A stretch of 64,000 nt of DNA from Candidatus Bathyarchaeota archaeon (GTDB taxonomy: Archaea; Thermoproteota; Bathyarchaeia; TCS64), in assembly GCA_030739585.1 (NCBI GenBank), contig JASLYX010000002.1, forward strand, positions 62,001 through 126,000. The letters run 5' to 3'. Made by a program: the position numbers and the translations under genes. Within the stretch, counting starts at the first letter, position 1, and each line of letters starts with the position of its first letter. Under the pieces are notes generated by a model. That model was not told where the DNA came from, made no database searches, and saw only the letters and a program-made list of their open reading frames with translations. Shown piece by piece: positions 53,836 through 55,170 of this stretch.

Positions 53836-54002
53836 TCTCATACCTCCAAACTAGATTATTTCAGGCGTGTCGATTAAAAAAGTTAGCGAAATTCTGAGCT
53901 CTTATGCTCGCACTAACCTTCATATCTTTGTTTTTATCATAATTTAGTGCTCTGAAACATTTACGAAAAAGGTTTTTCACCACTCAAAAAGATAAAGTCT
54001 CA

Positions 54003-54479
54003 ATGATCTTGGGGCTGTGCGGGATCCCGAGAGTAAAGTCAACGGAATACGCTCTCAGGGAGGCCCTCCGGATGCTGGAGGAGAGCGGATCTAAGATGGT
54101 CCCCTGTGGGGTCCGGGGAAACAGGATCCGTTTTGGCATTCACTGCGACAGCTGCCAGAACTGGGAGGGATGCCTTCAATGGGATGACGTACAGGAACTC
54201 TATCCTCTTCTAGATCTAGTGGAGATTGTTATGATCGCTGTCATCATCTACAACGGTGGCGTCAGCCACAAGTTCAAGACCATACTGGACAGGGACATAG
54301 CCATCTTTGAGGAGAACCCAGCTGTTCTCCTGGGAAGACCGGCTTTCCTTACAGTTGGGGGCGACATGTCTGGGGGTCAGAAGCTCGCGATCCAGCAGAT
54401 TATTACATTCTCTACTTTGAATGGGGCCAACGCCTTAAGTGTGGAAGCCTTTGGAGCCAATCTCCGGGCCCCCTTTTGA
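54003..54479 (+). CDS. Isf-like iron-sulfur flavoprotein/NADPH-dependent FMN reductase, interrupted by in-frame TGA
   Basis: 158 residues up to TGA 54477-54479. Flavodoxin-like fold: ILGLCGIPRVKSTEYALREA (phosphate loop) and IYNGGVSHKFKTILDRDIA. A Cys cluster HCDSCQNWEGC is close to that of archaeal iron-sulfur flavoproteins (Isf). The same frame continues after the TGA for 39 more codons with a coding-like helix, ending one base before the next gene's ATG. So this is probably a 198-residue protein interrupted by a nonsense codon, or one in which the TGA is read through. Its AfpA-like neighbour is a known electron donor to Isf in Archaeoglobus. Confidence 0.78.
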   Translation: MILGLCGIPRVKSTEYALREALRMLEESGSKMVPCGVRGNRIRFGIHCDSCQNWEGCLQWDDVQELYPLLDLVEIVMIAVIIYNGGVSHKFKTILDRDIAIFEENPAVLLGRPAFLTVGGDMSGGQKLAIQQIITFSTLNGANALSVEAFGANLRAPF

Positions 54480-54599
54480 TCAAAAGACCTTCTGGAGAGA
54501 GTCATGGAGGACGACAAGGGCATCGGCTTCATCAAGAAGATAGTGAGGCGTTTCGCTGATAACTTATATGAGCGGAGGAAGTTGATGGAGGACATCTGA
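54480..54599 (+). other. In-frame continuation of the Isf-like gene beyond the TGA
   Basis: Without frame change, the sequence after the TGA reads SKDLLERVMEDDKGIGFIKK, then IVRRFADNLYERRKLMEDI and a second TGA at 54597-54599. The next gene starts at 54601, the spacing expected if this were the real end. An independent small gene from ATG 54504 is possible but would leave the first gene without its usual C-terminal helix. Confidence 0.6.
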
Positions 54600-54600
54600 G

Positions 54601-55170
54601 ATGAATATAAGAAAACGAAAAATAGTGTGGGGCATCACTGGGGCGGGGGACCTTCTGGATGAGACTCTGGGAGTTATGAAGGGGCTCAAGGAGGCCTATG
54701 ATGGGAAAGTAGAGATCGAGGTATACCTCTCCAAGGCAGGGGAACAGGTTCTCCAATTTTATAGGTTAGGTGATAAGCTCAGAAGTCACTTCCGTCAGGT
54801 CCATGTGGAGAAGGATGCGAACACGCCTTTCATCACTGGCCGCCTCCACTTGGGACGTTTTGACTTTCTAATCCTCGCCCCCGCGACAAGCAACACAGTC
54901 GCGAAGATCGCCCATGGCATCTCTGACACACTACTCACAAACGGTGCTATCCAAGCCCTCAAGGCATGTGTCCCGGTGTATTTGATGCCCGTGGACTATA
55001 TGGAAGGTGCCATCGTCACCACCTTGCCCAATGGAAATGAGCTGGAGCTGAGGGTGAGAAAAGAGGACGCGGAGAACGTGGTGAAGGTATCAGAGATGGA
55101 CGGGATTATTATCCTCAAAAAGCCTGAGGAGATCGAGGAAATCTTTGACTCCGTGTTTGGGGGTCCCTAG
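54601..55170 (+). CDS. AfpA-like archaeal flavoprotein
   Basis: 189-residue flavoprotein of the homo-oligomeric flavin-containing Cys decarboxylase (HFCD) fold. Start KRKIVWGITGAGDLLDETLG, the FMN-binding FLILAPATSNTVAKIAHGIS, then DTLLTNGAIQALKACVPVYL with a PVDYMEG motif. It belongs with AfpA/dihydromethanopterin reductase-like proteins, which accept electrons from ferredoxin. Adjacent to an Isf-like gene (1 base apart), it likely forms a two-protein electron relay. Its stop overlaps the convergent MFS gene by four bases. Confidence 0.8.
   Translation: MNIRKRKIVWGITGAGDLLDETLGVMKGLKEAYDGKVEIEVYLSKAGEQVLQFYRLGDKLRSHFRQVHVEKDANTPFITGRLHLGRFDFLILAPATSNTVAKIAHGISDTLLTNGAIQALKACVPVYLMPVDYMEGAIVTTLPNGNELELRVRKEDAENVVKVSEMDGIIILKKPEEIEEIFDSVFGGP

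Follow-up and report, generated by a model that had tools for sequence, protein, structure and literature searches.

A TGA-interrupted Isf-like flavoprotein gene beside afpA in a Bathyarchaeota genome is probably a pseudogene at an early stage

The closest described relatives of the gene analysed here are the archaeal Isf-like flavoproteins encoded 5' of afpA (PF03358), for which 79 orthologues were collected from Bathyarchaeota, Archaeoglobi, Methanothrix, Jordarchaeia and others, all of at least 191 aa. The compact motif CX2CX2CX(4-7)C is the cluster motif of Isf-type iron-sulfur flavoproteins, and all four cluster Cys were kept in every orthologue. A family model (mean pLDDT 88) showed a flavodoxin-like fold closest to the WrbA and SsuE FMN reductases. 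Little literature was found on AfpA or Isf in archaea. The second system for comparison is the prokaryotic unitary pseudogene, which arises by ordinary decay through nonsense mutation; selection has relaxed, invariant sites are damaged, the neighbour is intact and a second intact copy is not found in the genome.

The window (the whole stretch of DNA that was analysed, 64,000 nucleotides) belongs to an assembly of 1.69 Mb in 28 contigs with a completeness of 95%. Its flavoprotein gene resembles the orthologues in locus order, fold family and sequence (62% identity to the nearest relative), and differs from them by a premature stop, a lost Cys ligand, lost invariant residues and a one-codon deletion. 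It is like the unitary pseudogenes in all the respects named above and differs from them in nothing notable, being at an early stage with one stop and no frameshift. The features of the locus are as follows.

53956..53979, plus strand: stretch holding the conserved element AAAGGTTTTTCA, a putative promoter common to relatives, about 25-40 nt 5' of the ATG
54003..54599, plus strand: probable pseudogene of an Isf-like 4Fe-4S flavoprotein of the FMN_red family, about 198 codons long in its ancestral form
54135..54137, plus strand: Gly codon replacing the first Cys of CX2CX2CX5C (residue 45 of the frame; Cys in 79/79 orthologues)
54477..54479, plus strand: in-frame TGA at an invariant-Trp position of the orthologue alignment (residue 159 of the frame)
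54480..54596, plus strand: 39 in-frame sense codons 3' of the TGA, former coding sequence, corresponding to the mostly helical C-terminus of the family model
54601..55170, plus strand: afpA, encoding archaeoflavoprotein (TIGR02699); the gene is intact and its evolutionary rate normal

The layout described in the initial annotation was confirmed throughout: the frame from the ATG at 54003 runs for 158 codons to the TGA, continues for 39 codons reading SKDLLERVMEDDKGIGFIKK...LMEDI and reaches a second in-frame TGA at 54597-54599, which is separated by one base from the afpA ATG. The frame still scored 49 bits against FMN_red (PF03358, cut-off 24) and was accordingly assigned a flavodoxin-like domain, and the afpA product scored 237 bits against TIGR02699 (cut-off 192). 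FtsY lies 5' and afpA 3' of the gene locus, in the window as in the related genome G006, and no second intact copy of the flavoprotein gene was found in this genome. A related-locus scan with the window protein as query found no loci, and a profile of intact orthologues yielded 138.

The residue preceding S-K-D had been described as often Trp, which understated the case, for the interrupted codon corresponds to Trp in all 79 orthologues. None of these has fewer than 191 aa, and none ends with the 158-residue form. The orthologues from the same genus (62, 60 and 53% identity) have no stop, and their frame runs on across the position of the window TGA. Since the 39 trailing codons were aligned with orthologue C-termini, they represent former coding sequence and not a chance open stretch. 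As judged from the family model, termination at residue 159 would cost the protein its C-terminal helices (model residues 165-169 and 172-198).

Damage was found across the rest of the gene as well. Eleven of the 41 columns invariant in all 79 orthologues were altered in the window copy (S8I, C45G, P81I, Q90K, R99I, G114A, R122M, E127K, G147V, G155R and Trp to stop), compared with at most one of 42 in any other orthologue when each was left out in turn. The losses include the first Cys of CX2CX2CX5C, which leaves the cluster motif incomplete, the Ser in the N-terminal motif GSPR, the Pro in ATPVYNG, and both R and E in GGDRxGGQE; one residue was deleted. Protein change was similar on either side of the stop, 37% before and 35% after. 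Heavy as the protein change is, the 594 nt contain one stop and zero frameshifts; roughly two stops would be expected at a neutral nonsense fraction of 2-3%, so one fits, and zero frameshifts is slightly low. Of the recent nonsense mutation considered in the initial annotation, the change from TGG to TGA is supported, while an isolated lesion in a healthy gene is not, the whole gene appearing to decay.

A strong acceleration was specific to the flavoprotein gene and absent from neighbouring afpA. In a Tajima-type relative rate comparison with L006 as outgroup, 55 changes were unique to the window and 6 to its sister L004 (p about 3e-10), whereas the same count for afpA gave 15 and 11; with more distant outgroups afpA showed a mild excess (16 vs 5 and 11 vs 3), far below that of the flavoprotein gene. 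Two-ratio codon models, whose branch omegas came from a custom script and not a standard package and are rough figures with silent sites near saturation, gave for the flavoprotein gene 0.19 on the window branch vs 0.066 elsewhere (2dlnL 9.2), three times the background though below 1 and significantly so (2dlnL 18.7 against omega = 1), and for afpA 0.058 vs 0.044, with no difference (2dlnL 0.3). Because the branch-average omega is well below 1, most of the window branch must have been under constraint. The simplest history would be prolonged constraint and then a brief period free of it, the latter occupying roughly 13% of the branch by a simple mixture.

It is thus very probable that 54003-54599 is a pseudogene in progress, at an early stage. 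The gene carries a truncating change relative to intact orthologues and has lost constraint relative to both the orthologues and the neighbouring gene. The data show the stop, the disappearance of invariant residues, an acceleration confined to this gene, an afpA in normal condition and, in another genus of the family, a second case in which this gene was lost and the adjoining afpA is intact. The starting state would have been a widespread archaeal 4Fe-4S/FMN flavoprotein gene (Isf-like, FMN_red family) normally located just 5' of afpA. Selection on it probably relaxed in this lineage, after which it would have gained the many changes at otherwise invariant sites, the one-codon deletion and the change of TGG to TGA, and the functional protein would no longer be made. 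The stretch may have escaped deletion so far either by holding the afpA promoter and leader or for want of time. Neither a residual product nor a base error at the stop is needed by this reading.

The flavoprotein gene has been lost recurrently. AfpA was above the cut-off in 17 of 61 genomes, including G006, G026 and G054, and a close Isf-like homologue was not found in these three. Genome G006 and its congener G016, in which the gene is intact, belong to another genus of the same family as the window genome. In G006 a relic (L208, G006:C1:1167000-1171000, minus strand, from about 1476 down to 1370) lies directly 5' of intact afpA and consists of the motif AAAAGGTTTTC and about 18 frameshifted codons reading GLFGSPRVQLPNCVLR; its alignment with the intact G016 copy scored 35, the maximum in 200 shuffles being 26. 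The relic is the same gene at the same locus, with the putative promoter motif kept and afpA intact, as in the window, and differs from the window copy in its late stage, with only these frameshifted codons left. The two look like early and late stages of one kind of loss.

The element AAAGGTTTTTCA was strongly conserved 5' of the gene across the genus. The motif also occurs in L004, L005 and L006, in a shorter form in L009, and was kept in the relic locus L208. Judged from its conservation and position it is possibly a lineage-specific promoter element; it is probably the promoter of afpA too, and would stay in place for that reason. At L209 (G026) and L210 (G054), afpA had no Isf-like gene beside it, and this suggests that AfpA is not dependent on it.

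We consider it unlikely that selection still maintains a product of the locus, as a flavin-fold protein that lacks the cluster, is shortened or is occasionally made by read-through and has a new role beside AfpA. For a protein of changed function that is cluster-less, diverged and perhaps shortened, still selected on its own, the prospects are slimmer again. The frame is open for 158 codons with no frameshift, FMN_red is still recognised and the branch omega is significantly below 1; but this omega is accounted for by a long constrained phase and a short neutral one, the cluster and probable flavin-site residues altered here are invariant in the 79 orthologues, and a truncated protein selected only upstream of its stop would not have diverged equally on both sides of it.

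A sequencing or assembly error, with TGG in the cell, is improbable. The genome is metagenome-assembled, but one miscalled base would explain neither the ten other invariant-column changes nor the acceleration, and the gene would look degraded even with TGG restored, so that correction would not rescue it.

Read-through of the stop, giving a small amount of full-length protein, is more doubtful still, and no positive support was obtained for it where it had been suggested. In its favour, published work reports many in-frame stops among bacterial genes whose dN/dS lies below 1 (PMC7918605), and the codons after the stop are no more diverged than those before it; a recent stop predicts the same equality. 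The stop was present in none of the 79 orthologues, and so is not a conserved stop followed by a constrained extension. Neither a stable RNA structure 3' of the stop (z 0.52 in folding near the stop) nor an Rfam element near it was found, and a full-length product would have neither the first Cys of the cluster nor several other residues that are invariant elsewhere. In a review of recoding in archaea, Sec and Pyl are the only cases for which read-through is named as demonstrated (PMC8211752).

Decoding of UGA as Sec or Trp in this lineage, also raised in the initial annotation, is scarcely credible: the TGA does replace a Trp codon one transition away, but the tRNA set, the missing Sec machinery and the codon use of the contig all contradict it. 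A tRNA-Trp(CCA) interrupted by a 56-nt intron lies at G000:C2:196128-196260 (L100, L207), below the Rfam tRNA cut-off and recovered by pattern search, and there was no UCA anticodon among the tRNAs found in this 95%-complete genome. SepSecS was absent at that completeness, and tRNA-Sec, SelB and SelD had no match above cut-off in the genome; the sub-cut-off matches identified for the latter two were EF-1 alpha, aIF2 gamma, ThiL and a HypE-like protein. Contig codons aligned with a relative's Trp were TGG in 224 cases and TGA in one, at 54477, as counted over 93 homologous segments and 23,114 aligned codons (about 264 kb of the genome vs about 400 kb from a single contig of one relative, one frame per place), so that TGA does not recur at Trp sites across genes; TGA was the first stop 3' of 30 of the 93 segments.

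Most probably the TGA is a symptom of common gene decay rather than of a novel reading of the genetic code. One candidate for UGA recoding in Bathyarchaeota is thereby removed, and what is found instead is a conserved redox gene beside afpA that has been lost repeatedly. Such loss suggests that AfpA can function in the absence of the Isf-like protein or that lineages differ in the partner of AfpA, either of which could help to place two little-studied proteins.

Outside the window but on its contig, a DUF362-family gene at G000:C2:14813-15157 (L094) has an in-frame TGA where a relative has Gly, and its match to the 354-aa frame of the relative is partial. This interruption again suggests gene decay, with no single meaning of UGA.
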